Positions 23,243 to 62,415 of a stretch of DNA of 64,000 nt are shown in pieces. Position 1 is the first letter of the stretch, and every line of letters begins with the position of its first letter. This DNA comes from Polytrichum commune (taxonomy: Eukaryota > Streptophyta > Polytrichopsida > Polytrichales > Polytrichaceae), in contig OX485806.1 in assembly GCA_950295325.1 (NCBI GenBank), positions 13,020,001 through 13,084,000 of the forward strand. Reading direction: 5' to 3'. The notes below the pieces were generated by a model. That model searched no databases and was not told the origin of the DNA. It saw only the letters and a list, made by a program, of their open reading frames with translations. Both the position numbers and the translations under genes were made by a program.

Positions 23243-24217
23243 TGTCGCAACCCTTGCTAGCCCTCCTTGACCATCTTGCCAATTTTCATTTCCTAGCAAA
23301 GGTTACGAGCGCTAACCATTCGCATTCCGCCATGCTAATGGTTAGCTCCTCTAACCCCGGACCTTATAGTTCATAGGAGGGAACCAACCCTCCTACTTTG
23401 CTTTTGGGACTCACCCCTTAATCGGTAACCCATTTCCCCAATGTGGACTTCCATCCATGGAAGTCCAATCCTATGTTGATCATCGCGTTGCCGGAGCAAC
23501 ACTACAACAACCCGAACCATACTAGGCAACTATGGCCTCACAATGGGCCAATGCCCATGGAGGCCGTGCCGTTCGGCCTCGGGTGGGTGAGGCCACACCA
23601 CCTCACCCATATAAGCCTCTAGGACTCTACGCGGGGCCCCTACCCCACCGTCAACCAACCTCTTGTCTCTCTACCAAGAGTTGGGGCCAAGTGGACATTT
23701 TCCCTTAGCCGCTGGGCCTAGAAGCCCCCAGCAGCTTCAGACCATCATAACTTCCTTGTATGATGTCTGATTCCAGCAACCAACCACTCCATCGTCATCT
23801 ACGCTTCACGTCGATGCCGATGGACTCCTCACTTGCCCCATTCGGGCAAGTGGTGAGGAAGTTATGCCTGTTTGAACCTTGGCAGTCCCGGGAATCACTC
23901 CCAGGCAATGCTGTACCAGGGCGCTGTCCCGGGACAGCGCCCCGCTCAAATGGCCATAACTCCTAGCTCACACCTCGGATTGAGGTGTTCTTGAGCATTC
24001 TAGAATCACCACGCCATGAGCTACGCACAGCTCATGGCCTTACCCTTGTGCCTCCTAGTCTTCGTGGATGGGAGGCGTTCCCAACGCCCGGGGACCTCAC
24101 CCACACTAGGATCACTTGGGCCCTCTCACCAACGGCGCCACAAGTCCCGGGTGTCACTCCGGGGTCCCCCTTGTGCCCATGGTGTTTCGGGCACTCCTCA
24201 TGGAGAGGTGCGCGACA
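23243..24217 (-). repeat. X2 3' LTR (975 bp)
   Basis: It is a complete family-A LTR. It is preceded (in element sense) by the polypurine tract at 24218-24232. Confidence 0.95.
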
Positions 24218-24710
24218 CTCACCCCCACCAAACGGAGTCGATGCCCTCATCGACTATACTCGTAGTCGGCACACCAATTCTCAAGTTGCCATCCTCTATG
24301 GTGCGGCATTGTGTTTACCTTAGGGCGCGACCCCCACAATGCATCTTCAAATTTGGCATAGTCCCAAAGGTGTCGTTCCTAGGTGGTCTGTTAACGACCT
24401 TGGATCTCTCATCCAAGGACCTAACCTATACTAGACCGACCTACTTTGGGACTCACTTGGGTTGCCCCTCCTTTGGGGCCGCCCCCGTTAGGCTCCACTA
24501 GCCTAACGTGACACATCTAGGCGAGACCTCAACGCTTCCACTAAGTTGTCTCGGTTGCAACTCCGAGATGGCTTTCCATTGTTAAGCCACGCCTCGATCG
24601 CACGGGGGTGATGCCAAGTCCCGCCCGACTCGGTTCCCACTTTGCTCTTTCGAGACATGGGTTCATGACTCCCATGCGCCAACTCTCGTTAGCTCGCGGG
24701 TAGCACTTTT
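24218..24710 (-). other. X2 3' untranslated region and polypurine tract
   Basis: In element sense the stretch ends GGTGGGGGTGAG directly before the LTR, a good polypurine tract for plus-strand DNA priming. The same ~490-bp region precedes the LTR at 40027 (Q) and, shortened, the one at 41402 (R), but is missing from W. Confidence 0.85.
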
Positions 24711-39900: not shown

Positions 39901-41000
39901 TGCATTGTGGGGGTCGCGCCCTAAGGTAAACACAATGCCGCACCATAGAGGATGGCAACTTGAGAATTGGTGTGCCGACTACGAGTATAGTCGATGAGGG
40001 CATCGACTCCGTTTGGTGGGGGTGAGTGTCGCGCACCTCTCCATGAGGAGTGCCCGAAACACCATGGGCACAAGGGGGACCCCGGAGTGACACCCGGGAC
40101 TTGTGGCGCCGTTGGTGAGAGGGCCCAAGTGATCCTAGTGTGGGTGAGGGCCCCGGGCGTTGGGAACGCCTCCCACCCACGAAGACTGGGAGGCACAAGG
40201 GTAAGGCCATGAGCTATGCGTAGCTCATGGTGTGGTGATTCTAGAAAGCTCAAGAACACCTCAATCGGAGGTGTGAGCTAGGAGTTATGGCCATTTGAGT
40301 GGGGCGCTGTCCCGGGACAGCGCCCTGGTACAGCAGTGCCTGGGAGTGATTCCCGGGACTGCCAAGGTTCAAACACGCATAACTTCCTCAAGACTTGCCC
40401 GAATGGGGCAAGTGAGGAGTCCATCGGCATCTACGTGAAGCGTAGATGAGGATGGAGTGGTTGGTTGTTATGATCAGACATCATACAAGGAAGTTATGAT
40501 GGTCTGAAGCTGCTGGGGGGGTTCTAGGCCCAGCAGCTAAGGGAAAATGTCCACTTGGCCCCAACTCTTGGTAGAGAGACAAGAGGTTGGTTGGCGGTGG
40601 GGTAGGGGCTCCGTGTAGAGTCCTAGAGGCTTATATGGGTGAGGTGGTGTGGCCTCACCCACCCGAGGCCAAACGGCAAGGCGTCCATGGGCATTGGCCC
40701 ATTGTGAGGCCATAGTTGCCTAGTATGGTTCGGGTTGTTGTAGTGTTGCTCCGGCAATGCGATGATCAACATAGGATTGGGCTTCCATGGATGGAAGTCC
40801 ACATCTAAGGAATGGTTACCGATTAAGGGGTGAGTCCCAAAAGCAAAGTAGGAGGGTTGGTTCCCTCCTATGAACTATAAGGTCCGGGGTAGGAGGAGCT
40901 AACCATTAGCATGGCGGAATGCGAATGGTTAGCGCTCGTAACCTTTGCTAGAATTGAAAATTGGCAAGATTGTCAAGGGGGCTTAGCAAGGGTTGCGACA
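36983..41000 (+). mobile_element. Element Q: shortened family-A copy
   Basis: Q begins with a 5' LTR reduced to 262 bp (36983-37244), the primer site, leader (to ~37940), a protease-like block (38138-38450), connection units (markers near 38769, 38994 and 39234) and part of RNase H to 39565. After that comes the family's 3' untranslated region, the polypurine tract and a full LTR (40027-41000). Integrase and chromodomain are not present. The flanks do not match as a TSD. It is broken and internally shortened. Confidence 0.85.
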
Positions 41001-42375
41001 CTTGGCATCACCCGCGTGCGATCGAGGCGTGGCTTAACAATGGAAAGTCATCTCGGAGTTGCAACCGAGACAACTTAGTGGAAGCGTTGAGGTCTCGCCT
41101 AGATGTGTCATGTTAGGCTAGAGGAGCCTAACGGGGGAGGCCCCAAAGGAGGGGCAACCCAAGTGAGTCCTAAAGTAGGTGGGTCTAGTATAGGTTAGGT
41201 CCTTGGATGAGAGATCCAAGGTCGCTAACGGACCACCTAGGAACGACACCTTTGGGACTATGCCAAATTTGAAGATGCATTGTGGGGGTCGCGCCCTAAG
41301 GTAAACACAATGCCGCACCATAGAGGATGGCAACTTGAGAATTGGTGTGCCGACTACGAGTATAGTCGATGAGGGCATCGACTCCGTTTGGTGGGGGTGA
41401 GTGTCGCGTACCTCTCCATGAGGAGTGGCCGAAACACCATGGGCACAATGGGGACCCCGGAGTGACACCCGGGACTTGTGGCGCCGTTGGTGAGAGGGCC
41501 CAAGTGATCCTAGTGTGGGTGAGGGCCCCGGGCGTTGGGAACGCCTCCCACCCACGAAGACTGGGAGGCACAAGGGTAAGGCCATGAGCTATGCGTAGCT
41601 CATGGCGTGGTGATTCTAGAAAGCTCAAGAACACCTCAATCGGAGGTGTGAGCTAGGAGTTATGGCCATTTGAGTGGGGCGCTGTCCCGGGACAGCGCCC
41701 TGTTACAGCAGTGCCTGGGAGTGATTCCCGGGACTGCCAAGGTTCAAACAGGCATAACGTCCTCAATACTTGTCCGAATGGGGCAAGTGAGGAGTCCATC
41801 GGCATCTACGTGAAGCGTAGATGAAGATGGAGTGGTTGGTTGTTATGATCAGACATCATACAAGGAAGTTATGATGGTCTGAAGCTGCTAGTGGGTTCTA
41901 GGCCCAGCAGCTAAAGGAAAATGTCCACTTGGCCCCAACTCTTGGTAGAGAGACAAGAGGTTGGTTGACGGTGGGGTAGGGGCCCCGCGTGAAGTCCTAG
42001 AGGCTTATATGGGTGAGGTGGTGTGGCCTCACCCACCCGAGGCCGAACGGCACGGCCTCCATGGGCATTGGCCCATTGTGAGGCCATAGTTGCCTAGTAT
42101 GGTTCGGGTTGTTGTAGTGTTGCCCCGGCAACGCGATGATCAACATAGGATTGGACTTCCATGGATGGAAGTCCACATTGGGGAAATGGGTTACCGATTA
42201 AGGGGTGAGTCCCGAAAGCAAAGTAGGAGGGTTGGTTCCCTCCTATGAACTATTGGTCCGGGGTAAGAGGAGCTATCCATTAGCATGGCGGAATGCTAAG
42301 GGTTAGCCACTCGTAACCTTTGCTAGAATTCAAAATAACCAAGATGGTCAAGGGGGGCTAGCAAGGGTTGCGACA
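40027..42375 (+). mobile_element. Element R: LTR, 401 bp, LTR
   Basis: Two full 974-bp LTRs (40027-41000, 41402-42375) enclose only 401 bp of family-A 3' untranslated region with its polypurine tract. The first LTR is shared with Q, so the three LTRs form a tandem array. At the left inner junction the sequence CTTGGCATCA resembles the start of the primer site (CTTGGTATCA). Confidence 0.85.
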
Positions 42376-45300
42376 TTGATGTCCTCATCAATGCCTACGC
42401 TTCATTTCATTGGAGTGTCTAGCCTTAGTTTCTTCAAAGTGCTTCACCAATTCATTGGTGTTCACCATGTCTCTTGCCGCCACCCAAGCGGTTTCTTTCT
42501 CATGGTATCCTCACCATTTCACCAAGTACTCCTTTGTACATTTTCTTTCCTTTTCACTTGGGCTTCCTACACTTGAGGATGCCCTCCTACCTCATGTTCC
42601 AAATGACCTCCACAAGGTCGGGACGTGGCCTAACCACTTGCTTGTGTTCGGGCCACAAGGTGTCGTCCTAAAATGACTTTCGTAATGAGACATGAAATGT
42701 CGGATGCACTTTGATCTCAGGCGGTAATTCCAACTTATACATGTCCTTGAACACTTGTTCCACAATGGAAAACGAAGCTCCAATTTTGGACATGAACTTT
42801 TGGAGTAAGGCCTTTGGGCAAGGTGAAGGTGTCCACATTCAACAACGCCTTTTGGCCCACCTCATTCTCCACTTCGCGTCTTCCGGCATTGATTTGCAGT
42901 CCGTAGCACCTTCGGGCTTTGTCCACCAACAACTTGGTCATCTCCAAGACTTGTCTACCATCCTTGGCCAAGTCCTCACCATCTTGGTTGAACTCTAGTG
43001 TTGAATGTGCCCCCTCGAGAGCTAGGTTAATAGGTTGGAGCGCATCCACTCCATAAGCCACCACGAAAGACCACCCCTTGGTAGCCAAGTGCGTGGCTAC
43101 ATTGCAATTACACTCCGCTCGACCCACATAGTCCGCCCAATCTCCTTGGTCCGCCCCCACCAAGTTCCTCAAGTATTGCTTCAAGACTCCATTCACATGC
43201 TCCGCTTTCCATTCATTTGGGAATGCACGGCCGTGCTAAACCTTAGTTTCAATACAACCTCCTTAGAGAAATGCATTGAAAATGCACTTGTGAACTTTGG
43301 ATCTTGATCCCACACAATCACTCTTGGCAACCCGTGGTGCCTCAACCATCCTTTGAGAAAAGGCTATGCGGTCTCCAACGCGGTGGCGGTTCCCACAATC
43401 GGCACCATGTGTGCCAACTTGGCAAACCGCTCTACCATCAACAAGATGGCATCATACCCATGTGACTCCGGCAAACTTGTGATCAAGTCCATGCACATAC
43501 TATGCCATGGCGCCGACGGGATAGGCAACGGTTGCAAGAAACCGCCTTGCTTTTGATAAGAGGCTCGGTTCACTTTGCACTTTGATTCAAGCCTCCACAA
43601 AGTGGGCTATATCTTCCTTTATGCACCGCCAATGGTACCTCTTTGACACCATTCTATGGCGGTTTTTTCTTTCTCCTCTATGGCCGGCAATAGGACTATC
43701 ATATTCCTCCTTCAAAACCGATAGCCTCAACTTGCCTTGTGGCACATATACCCGACTTTGTTTGCACTTGAACAATCCGTCCACCAACTTAACCTCTTTG
43801 AGCACCTTGCTCTTGCGAAGTTCACCTAAAAGCTTTTGTGCTTTGGGGTAGTTAATTTACCCCTCCCGTATCTTGCATCACAAGTTTCCTTCGCCGGCAC
43901 ACATTAGCCACAAGGTTTGGATGGTTCTCATTGCTTGGAACTCTTCCGGTCTACTTCGCGCATCCGGCACCACATTTCCACGGTCCGGTTTGTGGATCAA
44001 ATCCACCTTTATAAGCGCCAAACTATCATGCCACCGCAATGACTTGGCGTTCACTTGCGATTGAATGTCAAAATTCTTTTAGAACACATTGTCCATGTAG
44101 ACCTTTGATTTGTGCGACCCCAAATAGTGTCGCCACATCTTCAAGCAATGCACTACGGCAAAGAAGTTCTTTGTCATGAGTTGGTTGTCTTCTTTGACAA
44201 CCATCGAGCTTCATGCTCGCATATGCAATGGCCATCCATCTTACATTAACAATCCATCATTGGCAAAGTCATTCACCCCCGTATGCACCCCTCAAAAGGT
44301 TTGTCAAGCTCCGCGAACTTGAGCACGGGTGGCGAAGAGAACTTGGTCTTAAGCTCCCCAAAGACTCATGACAAACATCATCCCACTCTTGGGATAGCCA
44401 TTTATTTCACAAGTCGAACCATCGAGCTTCATGCTCTCATATGCAATGGCCATCCATCTTGCATCAACATCCGCCAATGGTAAAGTCACTCGCCCCCCGT
44501 ACGCACCTCAAAAGGTTTTTCAAGCTCTGCAAACTTGAACACGGGTGGTAAAGAGGAACTTGGTCTTAAGCTCCTCAAAGACTTGGTGGCAAGGCTCATC
44601 CCACTCTTGGGATAGCCATTTCTTGCACAAGTTGGACAAGCTTCTACAACCATGGAGCTTAATGCTCCCATAAGCAATGGTCCTCCATCTTGGATCAACA
44701 TCCGCCAATGGTAAAGTCCTTCGCCTTCATGTGCACCTCAACATGCTCATGAAAACCCGAAACTTAACCACATCTTGTGAAAAGAACTTGTTTTTGAGCC
44801 CCCCAAAGGCTTGGTGACAAGGCTCATCCCACTCTTGGGATAGCCATTTTTTCCAACATGTTGACTAAGGTTCTAGCAACCTTAGAAAAACCATGAATGA
44901 AGTGGTGGTAGTAGTTGGTTAGGCCAACAAATGACCTAAGCCCTTTTCTTGAATCAAGGGCCAATTCTTTTCTTGGATTGCCTTGACATTCTTCATGTTC
45001 GTCCACCAACTTCCTTTGTCACCACATACCTCAAGAACTCAATCTCTCGTTGAACAAAGTTATTTTTCAGTCCTTGGCGGTAACTTTTTGGGCAACACAT
45101 TGGTGAATACATCCTTGTATCTCACCAACATCCCACCAAGGTGATTTGGAGGAGGCCCATCTTTCCTAGCCTCTCCATACATTCCTTGGAGTTGGTCCAA
45201 TGGAACCACGACCATTATGTTTTCTATTTTTCAGTTGGTCCATTAAGACCAAATTCAACTTAGGTCCTCCTACCATAGGAGTCCTTGTCAATTTGAACTT

Positions 45301-49001: not shown

Positions 49002-49436
49002 TGTCGTTCTTGGAGTTCTTGAAATCTGATGTGAGGTCTAGATATGGACGTATTAAGGTCAAACTGATGTGAGGTTAGATATGTGGGTTACAAGTGTTAG
49101 GTTTTCTAAGGTTAGTTAGCTATGTTGGATATTAGGATAATCTGATGTAAGCGTAGAAATTTTGAAATTCCAGGGCCGAGTTTCAGTGTCTCGGTGCCGA
49201 GACACAATTTCTGGTTTTCAAACTGTAAACCCTACAATCATATTTGATATGGAAATCTAGATTTACTTTGTATAAGGGTACTCTGATATGAGACTACACA
49301 TGTGTGTTTGAAGTGAAATATGATGTGAGGTCTAGATATGCAAGTATTAAGGTCAAACTGATGTGAGGTTAGATATGTGGGTTACAAGTGCAATCTGATG
49401 TGAGGTCTAGATATGCTAGTATTAATGTCAAACCGC
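49002..49436. repeat. Duplicated stretch with GATGTGAGGTCTAGATATG words
   Basis: A ~65-bp block (GATGTGAGGTCTAGATATG, GTATTAAGGTCAAACTG, GTTAGATATGTGGGTTAC) near 49028-49097 recurs near 49321-49389 and partly at 49395-49430. Between them lies a perfect inverted repeat, GTGTCTCGG-TG-CCGAGACAC (49179-49198). No gene is visible. Confidence 0.6.
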
Positions 49437-49795
49437 GCTGTCCCCCCCCCCCTTCCCCGTCCGCCCCATTTTAAAAAAAAATAATAATTTCCCCCCCCTC
49501 CGTCCGCCCCCGTTCCCGACCCCGTCCGCTCCGTTCCCCCCCCCCCGTCCGCTCCCGTTCCCCCCATCCGCCCCCGTTCCCGGCTCCGTCCGCTCCGTTC
49601 CCCCCCCCCCCCCGTCCGCTCCGTTCCCGCCCCCCCCCCGTCCGCTCCGTTCCCGCCCCCGTTCCCGCCCACGTTCCCGACCCCGACCCCGTCCGCTCCG
49701 TTCCCGCCCCCGTTCCCGACCCCGACCCCGTCCGCTCCGTTCCCCCCCCCCCCCACCCCCGTCTGCCCCACCCTCGTCCCCCGTCCGCCCCACAC
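49437..49795. repeat. C-rich minisatellite (G-quadruplex-prone on minus strand)
   Basis: Runs of 7-12 C alternate with CCGTCCGCTCCGTTCCC- and CCCGACCCCGTCCGC-like units. The minus strand therefore has dense G runs. The same type of tract fills the MITE at 60561-61601. Gly-rich open frames on the minus strand are products of the repeat. Confidence 0.85.
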
Positions 49796-50070
49796 CCTCC
49801 TTAGTCGTTTTTTACTACTTTGATTTTAACAAAATGGTAAACAAAATGGCAAAATGATTTACCTGGCGCTAGGCATATCCACGACCACGTCGGCGTTTTC
49901 TGCCACATAGGACGCCACCTTGGCAAGAAGGTAAGTATTTTACCCACCCTAGTCCGTTCCCCCTATGTTGACCCTACGTGGACCCTATTGTGTCGTGACG
50001 GAGGGGTCCGTCACGACACGACACGACATGACGGCACGACACCGTCATGACGTCGCGATAGACAACCCTG
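49796..50070. mobile_element. Right end of a hAT-type DNA transposon
   Basis: This ~275-bp stretch is practically identical to the right end of the MITE at 61325-61601. It includes the hairpin GTGTCGTGACGGA-GGGG-TCCGTCACGACAC and the terminal ATAGACAACCCTG. It abuts gypsy coding sequence (G2) at 50071, as an insertion would. I could not find the matching left end (CAGGGTTGTCTAT) or a second copy of the adjacent GGTGGTTG in the window, so the left side is lost or diverged. Confidence 0.75.
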
Positions 50071-53000
50071 GGTGGTTGGGTTAGGGAGGAGATTGATCCA
50101 ATGTCGGATGAAGAGGAAAATGGCGGAACTAAGGAGGATTTTGAGGATACATTGGTGGGGGTTGTTCAAGACAAGAAGAAGGCTAAAATGTATTCCTCTA
50201 GCGGGTTCTTAGGTCCACACTTTTACAATCAAGATGTTGATGGGGATTTTATACATTGGTCAAGGCAATACACGGAGTCTATTAGCGACGTCATGATGAT
50301 GATTCATAGTTGTATCCTCCAAGATAGGGTGTCTAGAGAAGATTATTTGTCCTTAGAGCCGTGTGAGGTTCTCACGGAGGAGGAATGGGTGAAGGGAGGA
50401 CTCACTCCATGGTTAGATGATATTGAGTTGAGTGATGTGAGTTTGGTACATGTAGATGGGACTCAAGATGAGGAGGCCATGTTAGAACTCTCAAAATTAG
50501 AGCCCGCTTTGCATTTTAAAACTACTTCTACGGGCATTATAGTGGGTCATGATGTCAAGGACTACCCTAATGTACCCAACGATTGGTATAGAGATACCGA
50601 GGAGCAAACACGAGTGGTCGAAGAAGATTGGAAGTTTGTGGACGTCAAAATGAAGGATGAGAAAGTTAGACCAATGAAGATGGGCTCTAAACTCGATAAG
50701 AAGGAGATTAAGGAGTATAGCGACTTGATAGATGAATTTAGTGATACCTTTGCTTGGTCATACGATGAGCTCAAGGGGATTCCTAGAGAGATGGTTGAGC
50801 ATCGTATTCCGTTAGTTCCGGGCTCTAAACCGGTGAGACAAAAAAAAAAGGATGAATCCTAGATTGCAATTATTGGTCAAGGCAGAATTAGAAAGGTTGT
50901 TGCAGGCTGGGTTTATAAAGCCGGTAGAGATTACGGATTGGGTTTCTCCTATGGTGTTAGTGAAAAAGAAAAATGGGAAGCTTAGAGTTTGTGTAGACTA
51001 TAGGAAACTCAATGATTGTACGCAAAATGATCACTTTCCTTTGCCGTTCATTACCTTGTTGTTAGAGGAGGTAGGGGGTCATGAGAGGTACACATTCATG
51101 GATGGATACGCCGGCTACAACCAAGTAGCCATAGCACTAGCGGATTTGCACAAGACGGCATTTACAACACCTTGGGGGACTTTCATATGGGTGGTGATGC
51201 CATTTGGTTTATGCAACGCACCGGCAACGTTCCAACGACTAGTCATGTATATCTTCAGCGACTTGCTCTTCAAATCCATGACGGTTTATATTGATGATTT
51301 TAGTACCCAATCTAGTACTAAGGAGCATGTGCATTGTGTGAGAGAGGCCTTACTTAGGTGTAGGCAAATGCGGTTGGCATTAAACCCGGACAAGATATTT
51401 CTAGGGGTACAAAGGGGAGTTTTGTTGGGTTATGTTGTGAGTGAAAATGGGAGAGAACCGGATCCCGACAAGATCGCGGTCATTGATGGGTTAGAAACTC
51501 CGAAAAATGCCAAGGGGATCTCGAAATTGTTAGGTCATGTGGGGTGGTATAGGGAGTTGATTCCGGATTTTGCAAAGATAGCGGTCCCTATCACTCAATT
51601 GCTCAAGAAGGATGTTAGATTTGTTTGGACGGATGAGTGCCAAAAAGCCTTTGTTGAGTTGAGGTCCAAATTGAGCATTTATCCCGTCTTAAAGTCCCCG
51701 GATTGGGAAAAGCCTTTTCATGTGTATTGTGATGCCAACAATGTAGCGGTCGGTAGTGCCTTGTGTCAATTTACGGGAGAGAAGGGGAAGGATCTACCCG
51801 TAGCTTACGCTAGTAAGCAATTGACTTCCGCGGAGAGGAATTACTCCACTACGGAGAGAGAGTGTCTAGCCATGGTATTTTCGGTCAAGAAGTTTAGGCA
51901 CTATCTTATTTGTAATCCGGTAGTATTTTTTGTGGACCACATGGCCATTAAGTATTTGGTCAACAAGCCGGAGTTGAGTGGAAGGTTGGCTAGGTGGGTT
52001 TTGTTACTTGAAGAGTTTGATTACACGGTGGAATATAAACCGGGTCGCATGCATTTACAAGCCGACCACTTGTCTAGATTGTCGGAGGAGATGGGCACTA
52101 CGCCAATAGACGATACCCTCATGGATGATAGATTGTTTGTAATCACGTCCACACCGGATTGGTATGCCGGAATTGTAGAATTCTTGACCATTCAACAATT
52201 ACCATCCGAATGGACCAAGGAGGAGAAAAAAAAGGTTAGAGTCAATAGTAGGCACTTTGCCGTGATAGGCAATAGATTATTCAGGAGAGGAGCGGATACC
52301 ATCTTGAGAAAATGTGTATCGCAAGTAGAGGTTCCGGATATTCTAGAGGCATGTCATGATGTCACCAAAAAGCCTCCACCATTCAATTTCGTCCTAGCCC
52401 GAATGGAGAAGTTTATAATGACATGTAGATATTTCTCTCTTTGTAACACAATGTATGATTCCAATCTATCATTGGAATATACGCAACTTAGCCAAGTCTA
52501 TACTATGTCTTTTTACACTCCTTAATTTCGAAAATTTGGAAGTTTTTTTCAATTGGAAGAAATTTTGCTTACCTCAAGCAATTTGCTTCCTCCTGCTTTA
52601 TTAGTCTCTCCCCTCGATCGAATTGCTAAACATAAAGACACTTCAATAATTGCAATTGAAAAACACTAAAACCCTCTAGTTTAAAAAATTTAAACTCTCA
52701 CCACCGAGTGAGTGTTTGAAGTTTGAAATCCTAATTCTTTAATTATCCCTCTACCTCTTAGTTTTCTAGTGCGGATCCTATTAATGTGATCTTCGTTTAT
52801 GCCATCCCAAGAAGGTTTAGTAGTCGCACCTTTGCCGTGCTCCTTCCTCAATTGAAATTGCATAAAATAAATACTAAATGCAAAACATACCTCTCACGAG
52901 CGCTCCGTCCTTTAATCGCTCTTCACGCTTCGCTTCTCCTACCGCCTTCCAAGACTTCCGTCGCCCACTCTCCAAGCTCCAAGCTCCAAGCTCCAAGCTC

Positions 53001-55085: not shown

Positions 55086-56269
55086 CGAATTCGGAATTTG
55101 CCTGGACCGGGTTTGTTCATGCGTTGATGCCATAAAATCTTTTGACCCTTGTGAAACTTGAGAATTTTGTTCCCTTTTGATTTTTCCATTGCTTGATGTG
55201 TGTTCTCAATTTTCTCCGTAGTGTCACAAGAGGGTTTCTTGCAATGTTTGCACCTCTTGCCTTCAATTAACGTTTTATCTTGTCTCCTTTTTCTCAGGGT
55301 TTGAGTATGCTCAATATTTTCCTCCACTTCGATGCGGGTTAAATCTAATGTCTTTAATTGTTCCATTCTCTGTTTAAGAACGGGGTGCCATTCTTGACTC
55401 CTTTGTAGACTCTCCTCGTGGTAAATGAATGTCAATGGAAGTAAGGCTTCCGTTCCAAATACCAATGAGAATGGTGTATGCTTAGTGGTGACTTTGTATG
55501 CCGTTCTATACGCCCATAATGCCGCATAGAGTTTTGTGTCCCAATCCGTGCGATTGGCGTTTACCATTTTGGTAAGAGTTGTTTTAATGACCTTCTTCGT
55601 ACTTTTGGCTTGACCATTAGCTTGAGGGTAGTACGTTGTTGATTTCCGATGTAATACCATAAATGTCTTGGTTAAGATTTGGATTGTCTCATTTAGAAAG
55701 TGACTCCCTTGGTCACTAACTAGTTCGATCGGACATCCGAATTTGGTGATGATCTCCTCAAATATGAATTTTGCGGTAGATGCCGCGGTGTTATCCTTTA
55801 ATGCTCTCGCTTCATCCCATTTGGTAGTGTAATCTGTGGCGGTAATAATGTATCTATTTTTAGTACCTTTAGCCGGTGGATTGATTGGTCCTATAAAATC
55901 CAATCCCCATCTTTGAAACACCTCTGTAGGCATAATTGGGTGTAATGGTTGTGCGGACTTTGATACTTTTGGTCCCACTCTTTGACATATGTCACATTGT
56001 TTGCAATATAAGTACACGTCCCTTTTCATTGTAGGCCACCAATAAAGAGCCGTTAATATTTTGTGTAATGTGATGTTTGCCGCGAAATGTCCTCCCGCAA
56101 TGCCTTCATGTGCTTCGGCGATGATCGCCTCGGTAATTGGTCCGGAGACACATCTCCTCTTCATTCCATCGGCTCCTTCTTTTATTAATTGGTCTCCGTT
56201 GATGAGTTGAAAAGGTCTATTTCTTATCGCTATTTGTTGTCTTTGAAAAGTTGTTGCCGGTGTTGTCAA
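55086..56269 (-). mobile_element. H integrase
   Basis: Read on the minus strand this carries a linker, the zinc module (HEGIAGGHF, YWWPT at 56034-56048, CKQCDIC), the core start (RWGLDFIGPI), SDQGSHFLNE and YYPQANGQ, then LWAYRTAYKVTTKHTPFSLVFG and the C-terminal KPGPGKFRIRW. Integrase inserts element DNA into the chromosome. The zinc module is the fifth of an array that continues upstream (56306-58000). The piece ends at the junction with G2. Confidence 0.88.
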
Positions 56270-56305
56270 TCTCCCGTGCGATAAGTAGTCAATAAATGGT
56301 GTTCT

Positions 56306-58000
56306 TCAATCCTCTTGTGGATCGGTGGTAATTGCTCCGCATTGTATCTTAGTTGTTGCTTTCTTCTTACATCTTGGACATTCTCCATTGATATAATGTT
56401 CCGCGTCTTGTGCTATATTAGGCCACCAATAAGGCCCATTGAGAATTTGTTGAATTGTATCGTGTGTGATAAGATGAGTACCATTTTGTTCATGCACTTT
56501 TTTTATTAGATGCTTGATTGGATCTCCCGCGATACATATTTTACTTTCTCCGTGGTCTACTTCTTTTCGTAATTCTCCTTCTTCTATAAAGTAAGTTCCA
56601 TTTCCTTCTTCAAGTATCTTTTGATTCTTGGATTCTCCATGGTTCAAACATTCCATTATCGGTACTCTCCAATCTCTTTTGGTTGAATCATTCTTTTGTT
56701 GCATTGTTGTAGTACCATTTCTTTGGTTGTATTGCTTGATGAAATTTTGAATGTCGCGAGTCATCGTAGGCCACCAATATGGTCCTTGTGACGCTTCCTT
56801 TATCATTTCTTCACATGTTTGATGTTTTTCATGAAGTTCCTTTAAGAGTCTTTGTATCCGATTCTCCGATATGCATTCCTTTGGTATCTCGTTAGCAACA
56901 AATTGTCTCATTAGTTTGCCATTTATGATGGCGAAGAATTGGCTTCTATTCGCAATTCGTTCTTTCTCTTCTCCGGTCAATTCATTGCTAGTTACCTTTC
57001 CGAATGACAAATATTCGACGTAAGGTTTTCTCCAATCCGATGGTGAGATCTCCTTTAATGTAGTCGTTTGTTTTCCTTTTAGATTCATCTCTTCTTGTTT
57101 TCCATCGAGTTGTAACATGCATTCTTCACACTCGTATTCCGCATGATATTTGATGTCCTCGTCAATCGTTGGCCACCAATAAGGACTAAAGAATATTAAT
57201 TGTTTAGTCATCGGTAAGGTTAAGTGTTTTCCCTTTCCGTTGTGTGTCGCCGCTATTAGCTTTCCTCCTCGACTTCGTGTAACACATATTCGCGTATCTC
57301 CGTTGGGTAGTAATCTTATCAAGGTTCCTCTATCTAGAATGAACCGCTTGCATTTGTTTGCCCATTGAAGTTGCTTTTCATTTGTAATATTCTCTCCACT
57401 TACTTGTCCATTCCTCAAGTACTCAAAGTAGGGTGTTCTCCAATCCGTTGCTTGGTTCTCTTCCGTGGTTGATTCTTCATCCGTGTTTGAATCTAATATC
57501 AAAGTGTCGTTTTCTTGTTCATGTACTCGTCCTTCATTTTGTTGTAAGCAAACCAGACAATCTCCGCAATAACTCGCTACGTCTTTTTTTCTTGTTGGCC
57601 ACCAATAAGGTCCGCTTAGTATGGTGAACCACGTGTCTTCAAATGTTTGATGTCGCCCTTCTTGTTCATATGCTTCCGCAATGATTTCCTCAATAATTTG
57701 TCCCTTTATGCATGTCTTCGATTCTCCACTTGGGCTAACGCGTATTAGTTTTTCTTCATCCATGATGTAGGGTTCACTAACCCTTCTTATGCGTGTTTGT
57801 TCATCTTCCGTTGTTCTTATTGTTAACAACTTTCCATACTTGAGGTATTCTTTGAACGGTTTCCTCCAATCTTCCATTGGTTGAATATATACCATATACC
57901 ATTCAAGGCATGGTGTCACGTTTTCCTTTCCTTGTTCATTTTCTTCATTTGGTTGTTCATTTTCTTCCATATAATCATCTTCTTCTTCCAGTACCTCCAT
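56306..58000 (-). CDS. H: 564-codon frame with four tandem integrase zinc (H2C2) modules
   Basis: The frame is open and lies between RNase H and integrase of H. It holds four repeats at residues ~44-152, 186-294, 322-425 and 443-544. Each starts DWR-P--EYL--G, continues with a short FI--G-L-R linker and a CI block, then a helix with paired His, then GPYWWPT at ~131, 273, 407 and 523, and in most copies a C-x2-C pair (for example 291-294 and 541-544). This is the layout of the plant gypsy linker plus Integrase_H2C2 domain, normally present once. The modules differ a lot from each other, so the amplification is not recent, and their zinc-ligand sets are not equally complete. Acidic linkers separate modules. 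The marker GGCCACCAATA recurs on the plus strand at 57597, 57171, 56769, 56421 and, in integrase itself, at 56034. Confidence 0.85.
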   Translation of the reverse strand: MEVLEEEDDYMEENEQPNEENEQGKENVTPCLEWYMVYIQPMEDWRKPFKEYLKYGKLLTIRTTEDEQTRIRRVSEPYIMDEEKLIRVSPSGESKTCIKGQIIEEIIAEAYEQEGRHQTFEDTWFTILSGPYWWPTRKKDVASYCGDCLVCLQQNEGRVHEQENDTLILDSNTDEESTTEENQATDWRTPYFEYLRNGQVSGENITNEKQLQWANKCKRFILDRGTLIRLLPNGDTRICVTRSRGGKLIAATHNGKGKHLTLPMTKQLIFFSPYWWPTIDEDIKYHAEYECEECMLQLDGKQEEMNLKGKQTTTLKEISPSDWRKPYVEYLSFGKVTSNELTGEEKERIANRSQFFAIINGKLMRQFVANEIPKECISENRIQRLLKELHEKHQTCEEMIKEASQGPYWWPTMTRDIQNFIKQYNQRNGTTTMQQKNDSTKRDWRVPIMECLNHGESKNQKILEEGNGTYFIEEGELRKEVDHGESKICIAGDPIKHLIKKVHEQNGTHLITHDTIQQILNGPYWWPNIAQDAEHYINGECPRCKKKATTKIQCGAITTDPQED

Positions 58001-58646
58001 ACAAAATAAGTTGGCATCCGGTAATTGGTCGTTACTCCGGTGGGTGGTTCTCCATTATCGATTCTTGAGAGGTGATCTGCCATCACGTGTCGTCTTCCGG
58101 GCATATATACAATCTCGAAATCGTATTCTTGTAGAAGAAGCATCCATCTTGCGATTCTCCCCGAGATTATTGGTCTATTTATCAAGTATAACAATGCTTG
58201 ATGATCCACGTAAAACATGAAATGATTCGCCAAAAGGTAGTGTCGGAACTTGTTTACCGAATATACCATTGCTAAGGCTTCGCGTTCCGTTGTACTATAA
58301 TTTTTCTCTACTTGATTTAGTAATCGACTTGCGTAATATATAGGTGAGTCAATATTTCCATTCACCTTTTGCGCTAGTACCGCTCCAATGGCTATGTTTG
58401 ATGCATCACAATGGACATGAAATTCCATTGACCAATTTGGAGCCATTAATATTGGTGTTGTCGTGAGAAGTTTCTTGACTAGTTCAAATGTTTGTTGGCA
58501 ATTTGTCGTCCATTCAAATGCTTCATCCTTTTTGAGGAGAGCATAAAGAGGTCTCGTAATTTGTGCAAACATCCATATGAATCTCCTATGGTATGTTACC
58601 GAGCCTAAGAAAGCTCGTAAACTCTTGACATTGGTTGGTGGTGGTA
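57916..58646 (-). mobile_element. H RT C-terminal part and RNase H
   Basis: On the minus strand this encodes NVKSLRAFLGSVTYHRRFI (RT thumb side), the connection, RNase H (FHVHCDASNIAIGAVLAQ, NYSTTEREALAMVYSVNKF, VDHQALLYL) and the closing ADHLSRI. It is one normal connection unit, unlike family A. The upstream part of RT continues beyond the solo LTR at 59624. Confidence 0.88.
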
Positions 58647-59623
58647 TGTCGCGCACCTCTCCATGAGGAGTGCCCGAAACACCATGGGCACAAGGGGGAC
58701 CCCGGAGTGACACCCGGGACTTGTGGCGCCGTTGGTGAGAGGGCCCAAGTGATCCTAGTGTGGGTGAGGGCCCCGGGCGTTGGGAACGCCTCCCACCCAC
58801 GAAGATTAGGAGGCACAAGGGTAAGGCCATGAGTTATGCGTAGCTCATGGCGTGGTGATTCTAGAAAGCTCAAGAACACCTCAATCGGAGGTGTGAGCTA
58901 GGAGTTATGGCCATTTGAGTGGGGCGCTGTCCCGGGACAGCGCCCTGGTACAGCAGTGCCTGGGAGTGATTCCCGGGACTTCCAAGGTTCAAACAGGCAT
59001 AACTTCCTCAAGACTTGCTCAAATGGAGCAAGTGAGGAGTCCATCGGCATCTACGTGAAGCGTAGATGAAGATGGAGTGGTTGGTTGTTATGATCAGACA
59101 TCATACAAGGAAGTTATGATGGTCTGAGGCTGCTGGGGGGGTTCTAGGCCCAGCAGCTAAAGGAAAATGTCCACTTGGCCCCAACTCTTGGTAGAGAGAC
59201 AAGAGGTTGGTTGACGGTGGGGTAGGGGCCCCGCGTGAAGTCCTAGAGGCTTATATGGGTGAGGTGGTGTGGCCTCACCCACCCGAGGCCGAACGGCATG
59301 GCCTCCATGGGCATTGGCCCAATGTGAGGCCATAGTTGCCTAGTATGACTCGGGTCGTTGTAGTGTTGCTCCGGCAACGCGATGATCAACATAAGATGGG
59401 ACTTCCATGGATGGAAGTCCACATCTAGGAATGGATTACCGATTAAGGGGTGAGTCCCGAAAGCAAAGTAGGAGGGTTGGTTCCCCTCCTATGAACTATA
59501 TGGTCTGGGGTAAGAGGAGCTAACCATTAGCATGGCAGAATGTAAAGGGTTAGCGACTCGTAACCTTTGCTAGAATTGAAAATTGGCAAGATTGTCAAGG
59601 GGGGGCTAGCAAGGGTTGCGACA
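58647..59623 (+). mobile_element. Solo family-A LTR in H
   Basis: It is a complete 977-bp LTR inside the H RT gene, in opposite orientation. The flanks TGGTA (58642-58646) and TGGCA (59624-59628) are a TSD with one difference. Confidence 0.93.
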
Positions 59624-60560
59624 TGGCAAGCTTTGTATCACGGAGATCTTTTTGGGATCTATCAAAAGTCCTTCTTTGCAAACCACGTGACCAAGTAATC
59701 TTCCCGAGGTCACACAAATCATGCATTTCTCCGGATTAAGACTTAATCCACACTCTCTACATCGTTGAAGACAAAGCTTAAGGTTCTTGATATGATCCGC
59801 CTTGGTCCCATATATACTAAAATCGTCCAAAAATACTTTCATGAAATCATTTAGAAACTCCGCGAATATCGTCATCACTCCCCTTTGAAAAGTGGATGGT
59901 ACGCTTATTAGTCCGAATGACATCACTCTAGTAGCATACGCTCCCCATTCCGTGATAAAACAAGTTTTCGGTTGATCCTCCGGTGCTACTCTTACTTGAT
60001 TGTAACCACTAAACCCGTCTAGTAGTGACAACATCTCGTGTCTGGCTACCGTTTCAAGAATCTCCTCCGTGAATGGTAATGGAAATGGGTCGGATTTTGT
60101 TGCTCCGTTGAGTTTCCGATAATCTACACATACTCTCAACTTTCCATTTTTCTTTGGTACTATCACTATCGGTGAAAGCCATTCCGCTCTATCTACCGGG
60201 TATATGAATCCGGCCTTGAGCAATTTGTCGATCTCCTCTTTCACCTTTGCCGCATAATTCGGATTCATTCGATATCGACTTTGCTTGATTGGCTTGGTAT
60301 TTGGTTTGAGTTTTATCTTGTGCTCACAAATGTGAGGTGGTATCCCTTTCATATCCTCATACGTCCATGCGAATACATCCTTGTAATCCTTTAGTATCTC
60401 GATCACTTGGTTTTCATAGGTAGGGTCAAGTTCCTTTCCTATTCGTACCATTTTGGGATCCTCTGTTGTCCCAAGGTTAATCTCCTTTATCATATCTTCA
60501 TCTTCGATAGTCCATCCGGCGATTGTTTTCCCTTTCACCGCTTCGGATGCCGGTGTTCGA
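59624..60560 (-). mobile_element. H RT N-terminal part
   Basis: On the minus strand this encodes the region before RT (FAWTYEDMKGIPP), RT fingers and palm (VCVDYRKLNGATKSDPFPLPF near 60090-60130, LLDGFSGYNQV, FLDDFSIYG near 59820) and the stretch up to the solo LTR. The MITE at 60561 cuts it from protease. Confidence 0.9.
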
Positions 60561-61601
60561 CAGGGTTGTCTATTGTGTCGTGACGGAGGGTAATCCCGGC
60601 ATAATGTCGTGCCGTCACGACACGTATCCGTCACGACATTATGCCGGATGTTGTCTTTATCCTGACGGACTTGAATTTTACCGATTTTTTTGTGTAATTA
60701 CATTAACCCAATTCAGACACGTAGGATTTACAATGTCCACGTGTGATGACATGTCAGCAAAGTAAAGGTAAAGTGGGGAAAAATTTACTAGAGCCCGTCC
60801 GCCCCTCCGTCCGCTCCCCCGTCCGCCCCATTTTAAAAAAAAAATTCCCCCCCCTCCGTCCGCTCCCGTTCCCCCCGTCCGCTCCCCCGTCCGCCCCAGT
60901 TTTTTTTTTTTTTCCCCCCCCCCCTTTCCCCGTCCGCCCCATTTTTTAAAAAAAATTTCCCCCCCCTCCGTCCGCTCCCGTTCCCAACCCCGTCCGCCCC
61001 GTTCCCCCCCGTCCGCCCCTCCGTCCGCTCCCCCGTCCGCCCCAATTTCCCCCCCCCCTCTTCCCCGTCCGCCCCATTTAAAAAAAATAAAATAATTTCC
61101 CCCCCCTCCGTCCGCTCTCGTTCCCCCCCGTCCGCCCCCGTTCCCGACCCCGTCCGCTCCGTTCCCCCCCCCCGTCCGCCCCCGTTCCCGGCTCCGTCCG
61201 CTCCGTTCCCCCCCCCCCGTCCGCCCCCGTTCCCGGCTCCGTCCGCTCCGTTCCCCCCCCCGTCCGCCCCCGTTCCCGGCTCCGTCCGCTCCGTTCCCCC
61301 CCCCCCCACCCCCGTCCGCCCCACACCCTCCTTAGTCGTTTTTTACTACTTTGATTTTAACAAAATGGTAAACAAAATGGCAAAATGATTTACCTGGCGC
61401 TAGGCATATCCACGACCACGTCGGCGTTTTCTGCCACATAGGACGCCACCTTGGCAAGAAGGTAAGTATTTTACCCACCCTAGTCCGTTCCCCCTATGTT
61501 GACCCTACGTGGACCCTATTGTGTCGTGACGGAGGGGTCCGTCACGACACGACACGACATGACGGCACGACACCGTCATGACGTCGCGATAGACAACCCT
61601 G
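60561..61601. mobile_element. hAT-type MITE, 1,041 bp, with C-rich minisatellite
   Basis: It has perfect 13-bp terminal inverted repeats (CAGGGTTGTCTAT / ATAGACAACCCTG) and a perfect 8-bp TSD, GTGTTCGA (60553-60560 and 61602-61609), which together are typical of hAT transposons. It has no transposase frame. Subterminal parts are full of GTCGTGACGG / CCGTCACGAC words and form two strong hairpins, one near 60596-60648 (CCGGCATAATGTCGTG arms) and one near 61520-61550. Positions 60796-61325 are a C-rich minisatellite with units such as CCGTCCGCTCCGTTCCC. The shared right end is practically identical to 49796-50070, so both moved recently. Confidence 0.93.
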
Positions 61602-61609
61602 GTGTTCGA

Positions 61610-62358
61610 TCGATCGCTTGTTCTCCTTCTTTCATCTCATAAAAGTGAGATGGATAAACCGGTCTTTCTCCCATGTCTTCCTTTTGTTTTGGAGTTCCTT
61701 CTTTGAGCTTAGGGACTTGTTTCTCCTTCTTCTTGGTATTTGCTTTGAGTCCCTTTTTGTTGATATTCTCTACATTTTCTCCTTCGATGCTTGTCATAAC
61801 CATATTGCAATCGGTTTCATATAATAGCTTCAATCCATCTAGTTCTACATCGGCTATGTGGTGTAAACTTGGATAAGCTTGATAAACTACTTGCTCCTCT
61901 TCATCGGTTAATCCGGCCTCCCAATCAAATCCTTCGATATTGATTGGTCTTGATGAATCCGGAAGCTTTGGCCTTCGATTAGTACCAATAGATACATCTA
62001 TTCCATTTTGATACAAAATTAGTTGACTCTTTCCCCAATCGTGCTTGGCACGTGCTTGCTTAAGCCATGGTCGTCCAAGTAGCATTGAGTAACAATTCTC
62101 TTGATTTTCCATCTTCATTACCGTTACGGTGACCTTAAAGGTCAAACCTCCAATTGTGATTTTCAAATTTTTGATAATTCCAAGTGGCGTAACCTTCCTT
62201 TGATCCGCCATTTTGATCGTAAATGGTGCCACTTCAAGTTGTTTCTCTATTCCCAATTTGTCCATCAAAGTGTCCGTAATGATGTTCACTCCCGATCCTC
62301 CATCTAGTAATACGTTGGATATTCGTCGATTCTTAGTCCATACCGCTATCATCGGCAT
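61610..62358 (-). mobile_element. H aspartic protease region
   Basis: On the minus strand this encodes VLLDGGSGVNIITDTLMDKLG (the protease active-site block, motif DGGS), PLGIIKNLKITIGG, and SMLLGRPWLKQA. It matches the retropepsin of plant gypsy elements, which cuts the polyprotein. An acidic linker toward RT follows and is cut by the MITE TSD. Confidence 0.88.
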
Positions 62359-62415
62359 CTCTTCATCAAAGTCTTTTGTGGCTACGAGATATGTTTGAGG
62401 GACTTCCCTCTCATC

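Follow-up and report, generated by a model that had tools for sequence, protein, structure and literature searches.

Multi-module integrase N-terminal arrays between RNase H and the integrase core in a Ty3/gypsy lineage of Polytrichum commune

The window analysed, by which is meant the whole 64,000-nucleotide stretch of Polytrichum commune contig OX485806.1 (positions 13,020,001 to 13,084,000), contains on its minus strand a gypsy pol copy, here called H, in which an array of repeated modules is flanked by RNase H on one side and by the integrase core on the other. Four of the modules are carried by a single frame of 582 codons (58054..56306, minus strand), and the fifth forms the head of the integrase frame, behind a stop codon. 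A preliminary description of this DNA had given the same layout of four modules in one frame and a fifth on the integrase, and this layout stands, as does its place between RNase H and the integrase core; the open frame is of 582 codons and not 564, and the RNase H and array frames differ. The further claim of a CxxC in every module was correct for modules 2, 4 and 5, where the HHCC set is complete, but not for module 3, where the Cys pair is missing. The parts of H are listed below, with positions in the window.

61576..62415, minus strand: aspartyl protease frame (gag-asp_proteas, 31.6 bits), assigned to H by place and strand
59606..60697, minus strand: reverse transcriptase (RT) frame (RVT_1, 85.2 bits)
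58635..59628, no strand assigned: insertion of about 990 bp in the gap between RT and RNase H
58123..58512, minus strand: RNase H (Pfam RT_RNaseH / RT_RNaseH_2), in a frame other than that of the array
57521..57871, minus strand: module 1, an extra N-terminal-half module; DWR motif starting at 57871, YWWP motif at 57607; H2C2 32.8 bits; first zinc His replaced by Tyr
57095..57445, minus strand: module 2, extra; DWR 57445, YWWP 57181; HHCC complete; 15.9 bits, under the Pfam cut-off
56693..57037, minus strand: module 3, extra; DWR 57037, YWWP 56779; H2C2 31.9 bits; no Cys pair
56345..56674, minus strand: module 4, extra; DWR 56674, YWWP 56431; HHCC complete; H2C2 30.2 bits
55958..56311, minus strand: module 5, the integrase's own N-terminal module; DWR 56311, YWWP 56044; HHCC complete; H2C2 58.1 bits
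56306..56308, minus strand: in-frame stop at the W codon of the DWR motif of module 5, from reading of the frame
55625..55927, minus strand: integrase catalytic core (rve, 36.7 bits)

The domain order in the window (protease, RT, RNase H, integrase), read from the separate frames of a broken copy, is that of Ty3/gypsy elements. The same order was indicated by other copies, in which RT and the end of RNase H also precede the array. In H, two inserted stretches separate the protease, RT and RNase H. Copies of the insertion of about 990 bp, with about 94-95% identity, lie elsewhere in the window at 23243-24231, 40013-41007 and 41388-42376. The stop codon, the change of frame between RNase H and the array, and the insertions mean that H itself is dead. 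A second gypsy copy in the window, near 13.6 kb, has one module.

Two C-rich, minisatellite-like stretches were also observed, at 60561-61602 and at about 49400-50071, with an identical 72-bp end common to both (50000-50071 and 61531-61602). The one inside H, between the protease and RT, has inverted 21-nt ends starting CAGGGTTGTC. In appearance both are copies of one non-autonomous DNA transposon, which may be hAT-like. The C-rich repeats near 60.8-61.3 kb were considered as H's own LTR and as the binding target of the array, but this was dropped, since the stretch has inverted ends, lies between the protease and RT, and has a twin beside a plus-strand gypsy element. From about 21800 to 45600, the window is a dense nest of related sequences, in which long repeats, both direct and inverted, of 1-2.4 kb and about 85-97% identity are numerous.

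The relationship of the modules to the H2C2 domain, proposed in the preliminary description, was borne out by profile and fold comparisons. Pfam Integrase_H2C2 (PF17921) matched four stretches on the 582-residue translation (87.9 bits, E 4.8e-25) and matched once on the integrase frame, the same frame as rve. When the five modules were scored singly, four exceeded the curated cut-off of 25.5 bits and only module 2 fell below it. For module 2, the AlphaFold2 model (pLDDT 87.9) matches the integrases of PFV and Ty3, and in a fold search of the PDB the first 12 among the best 50 of 261 matches were all integrases, with E below 0.001 for one of the 261. The integrase frame of H, comprising module 5 and the core, matched PFV integrase at E 1.3e-24. 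Predicted structures of modules 1 and 3 were of low or mixed confidence, and prediction of the whole array was poor (mean pLDDT 46.9, pTM 0.24).

The models further suggest that the repeated unit is larger than the H2C2 domain plus linker that had been described. In modules 4 and 2, an N-terminal extension fold is predicted ahead of the zinc domain, and the match to PFV takes in this extension too; H2C2 alone was therefore rejected as the unit. The zinc domain of the earlier description is retained, and the unit is the N-terminal half of an integrase, that is, an N-terminal extension followed by an H2C2 (HHCC) zinc domain. For retroviral and gypsy integrases, a single zinc-binding N-terminal domain is generally assumed. 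Ty3 integrase has one N-terminal module, and the PFV integrase carries its extension and zinc domain (NED and NTD) once, in contrast to the three to eleven times found in the array lineage. Residues 13-104 of PFV integrase (PDB 3l2q, 4e7k and 4bac) align with module 4 over the extension and HHCC domain together, and module 2 also matches; the same N-terminal-half unit in Ty3 integrase (PDB 7q5b) is matched by the module 2 fold. The extension of PFV integrase is reported to play no part in in vitro activity, which counts against the explanation favoured below.

The genome of the window (408 Mb, 64 contigs) was searched with the 582-codon frame, and at least 125 matches were obtained with 75 of 957 candidates scored. 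Among the scored candidates at least 18, including that of the window, matched over about the full length of the query at 79-100% identity. These constitute family A, and 4 of the 18 were without a stop. Five modules were present in each of the eight family A copies fetched, the fifth being cut or split in two of them (L002 and L008). A sister family with longer arrays, family B, shares about 69-73% RT identity with the window copy over the longer matches; it could not have been seen from the window alone. From the best 30 of its 59 matches, which were fetched, 16 loci had all eight modules in a single frame (the first module being partial in one locus), seven had eleven modules in one frame, four had eight modules over two or more frames, and three (L031, L036 and L038) showed decay, rearrangement or truncation at the locus end. 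No stop occurred inside the match in 15 of the 26 loci L009-L034, with frame shifts still possible, for example in L034, and the longest open frames among family B loci reached 3716 codons.

A decayed copy of a further relative, labelled D, has three modules and an RT 76% identical, and three loci of more distant gypsy families (RT 50-53%) have one module each. Counting the integrase's own module, the array sizes in this genome are thus 3 (in the one decayed copy), 5, 8 and 11. The multi-module array, between RNase H and the integrase core, is a trait of a Ty3/gypsy lineage in this genome, and the expectation that other copies would share it proved correct. As a separate observation on the host, radial-spoke protein 3 exceeded its cut-off at G000:C3:42365466-42366742 and G000:C7:28440008-28440154 and in none of 14 control genomes; the host probably makes flagella or cilia, which in a plant would point to a non-seed plant.

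Three queries against 5.8 billion public proteins returned 8, 7 and 25 matches, which together represent 29 proteins. By our own profile, 24 of these have at least two full modules and five (P0005, P0008, P0023, P0025 and P0027) have one, two of the five with pieces of neighbouring modules. One protein, P0004, has five modules in full and part of a sixth. Since nothing among the scored candidates of the window's genome exceeds 77% identity to it, P0004 very probably comes from another genome. The other public proteins were compared to the fetched loci only, with identities of 62-95%, and some may come from the same species as the window. In P0014, a JGI protein, the array modules run straight into the region normally downstream of the integrase core, with the integrase's own module and the core absent; it is possibly an integrase-less variant or a chimera.

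The array lineage was compared with the known groups of plant Ty3/gypsy elements. The distance from the end motif of RNase H to module 1 downstream is 34 residues in 16 family B loci and 70 residues in six family A loci, the eleven-module loci beginning too near module 1 to include the motif, and this spacing does not agree with the second RNase H that Tat elements (Ogre, Retand) have between RNase H and integrase. No match to such a domain was found there in the window frames scanned. TatI-TatIII have the second RNase H between protease and RT or after the integrase; a scan of the frame downstream of the integrase in two copies gave no match. A chromodomain was not found at E 0.1 in P0012, the one protein scanned, which extends past the integrase core. 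Phygy is described in an excerpt of PMC6317226 as a rather short element with an insertion preference for NCGN; in the array elements, the length of the terminal repeats (at least 3.2 kb) and the presence of another frame downstream argue against the term short. The same excerpt mentions no array for the plant non-chromoviruses (Athila, Tat, Phygy and Selgy; PMC6317226), and it is the three single-module outgroup loci of this genome, with RNase H, one H2C2 module and a core, that resemble these.

This other open frame was observed downstream of the integrase in two family B elements, L043 with L045 (G000:C4:53287500-53297759) and L044. The two frames are of over 600 and about 940 codons and have no clear Pfam match. 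That of L045 ends within sequence that recurs at the element's 5' end and may therefore lie partly in the LTR.

No prior description of such an array was found in the open-access literature searched, judged mainly by listings, with subscription papers mostly outside the scope. The statement that no gypsy lineage with this layout has been described stands within that literature, and as far as it shows, the integrase architecture of this gypsy element is new. According to the excerpt of PMC5384227, an integrase-type HHCC finger occurs outside integration in yeast Spt10 and vertebrate ZBTB11, with a role in the recognition of cellular DNA for which the finger of ZBTB11 is needed; there a single finger is part of a cellular regulator, in contrast to the retrotransposon-borne array described here.

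The history of the array was deduced from a tree of 47 modules. The extra modules were parted from the integrase's own modules and the single-module outgroups with split support of 100/100. A1, B1 and D1, which head the arrays of the two families and of the three-module relative, grouped together (94/92), and A4 grouped with B6 and B7 (96/95). Long branches drew a program warning for this tree and for a second one, which leaves the finer forks uncertain. On this evidence the extra modules form one clade that began to differ before families A and B split, and since all of them are parted from the integrase's own module, the array is older than that split. The simplest account would be an early single duplication of the integrase N-terminal half, further duplications before the A/B split, and then more in B. 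In the second tree, the eleven-module arrays have two related three-module blocks at the head, and the four eight-module arrays in that tree divide between them: L033 groups with the first block, whereas L010, L012 and L029 group with the second. Array length in family B thus seems to change three modules at a time. One eight-module element has long direct terminal repeats of 3242 bp with a single mismatch, a sign of either very recent insertion or gene conversion. In this same copy no target-site duplication was found, and the start of its 5' repeat looked cut.

Constraint on the individual modules was estimated as pairwise Nei-Gojobori dN/dS, with pairs too similar or too diverged omitted. 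Eight copies of family A were used (six for module 5). For family B, L022 and L025 were dropped, since L021 and L024 were regarded as their near duplicates, and L036 was omitted from the per-module values; loci of other module counts (L011, L031, L034, L035, L037 and L038) were excluded from dN/dS and from the ligand count below. In the true frame, dN/dS was 0.08-0.24 over the five positions of A and 0.04-0.22 over 14 position groups of B. The same alignments shifted by one or two bases, or reversed, gave 0.67-5.8. Nearest pairs, with each copy used once, gave 0.06-0.25 in the 19 groups (2 to 10 pairs per group). The extra modules alone ranged from 0.06 to 0.24, compared to 0.04 and 0.08 for the integrase's own module. 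The stretch of the integrase core had medians of 0.03-0.04 and that with RNase H 0.06-0.10, both from fewer pairs and some broken frames, with stops in some of the flanks (up to 13 in 230 codons). Constraint on the extra modules is therefore similar to that on RNase H or slightly weaker, for most of them weaker than on the core, and far from absent. They are under purifying selection, as the suggestion of dN/dS below 1 for each module had anticipated, and because selection has kept them in shape they very probably do a job. The earlier conjecture that the extra modules may have had a function gains from this result, which extends to all 19 position groups.

The zinc ligands were counted with near-duplicate loci kept. 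A full set of four (HHCC) was found in 219 of the 246 modules. Two positions account for 18 of the 27 exceptions, and the other 9 are single changes at five further positions. At module 3 of family A the set was complete in none of eight copies, all of which lack the Cys pair, although the pair is present at that position in P0001. At position 6 of family B it was complete in 14 of 24, and the remaining ten (L017-L026), taken as one group, lack both His and the second Cys together. This joint loss suggests that the ligands are otherwise kept for zinc. Zinc is evidently not needed at every position, given its loss at these two, and position 6 of family B as a whole remains under constraint. The zinc columns varied less than the others, with a majority frequency of 0.958 versus 0.903. 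Median net charge by position ranged from -8 to +8, the latter at position 3 of family B, so that the roles of the modules probably differ, and the acidic medians argue against nucleic acid binding by every module.

These data were weighed against several explanations of the array. The broken state of H, with its stop, change of frame and insertions, is what would be expected of a private duplication in one dead copy or of an assembly artefact. However, at least 18 near-full-length family A matches and 30 fetched sister loci, scattered over contigs C1 to C7, rule out a private duplication, and proteins from other assemblies carry arrays as well; the probability of this explanation is negligible. 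A selfish or neutral expansion would have arisen by unequal exchange and been tolerated in a linker, remaining open since the frame must reach the integrase. This would account for the changes of family B arrays in three-module blocks and is in keeping with the zinc site lost at two positions and the dead window copy. An open frame alone does not, however, yield values of 0.04-0.24 in frame when the shifted or reversed controls give 0.67-5.8, and neutral drift was rejected on this ground. The lower variability of the zinc columns and the identity that some positions hold across families in the tree also speak against such an expansion, which is improbable and already largely refuted.

The remaining alternatives assign the modules a function of a different kind. 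If the protease freed them as separate small zinc proteins, nucleocapsid-like or capsid-associated and apart from the integrase, the linkers between modules, some of them strongly acidic, and the predicted ability of module 2 to fold by itself would be understandable. In the L046 frame of a sister element, however, two CCHC-type knuckles were seen by eye upstream of the protease, so a nucleocapsid is not missing there, and the release of the modules is considered unlikely, if still worth keeping in mind. The array could instead be a scaffold for protein contacts only, which binds a host chromatin or transport factor and so steers insertion without touching nucleic acid. Acidic modules suit protein contacts, and sequence and median charge do vary by position, but several positions are basic (position 3 of family B being the extreme), and we regard a pure scaffold as rather doubtful.

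The explanation we favour, with a probability of about one half, is that the array is a selected multi-module front end of the integrase, with the role of holding nucleic acid or organising the integration complex. The modules, most of them stabilised by zinc, would form a string that is not separated from the integrase, at least not in the precursor, and the likeliest work of the array would be to hold nucleic acid, whether cDNA ends, target DNA or packaged RNA. The need for the ZBTB11 finger in the recognition of cellular DNA speaks for this explanation. Basic modules would touch the nucleic acid and acidic modules would make protein contacts. The integrase of maedi-visna virus assembles sixteen subunits, as stated in the excerpt of PMC9065133; within a single chain, the array may provide the N-terminal domains for which retroviral integrases recruit more subunits. 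Since array lengths change by whole modules, no exact number of modules would be needed. A more specific version of this front end, put forward tentatively, is a modular reader of nucleic acid with up to eleven specialised modules per chain, the basic ones binding nucleic acid and the acidic ones joining chains. One or two chains might then build in cis what others build from many subunits, and the gain or loss of modules might retune where or how the element inserts.

Elements with 1, 3, 5, 8 and 11 modules in one genome provide a natural series for the role of the integrase N-terminal domain. When annotation filters reject elements because of repeated domains, genuine architectures can stay hidden, and arrays such as these may have been lost in that way.
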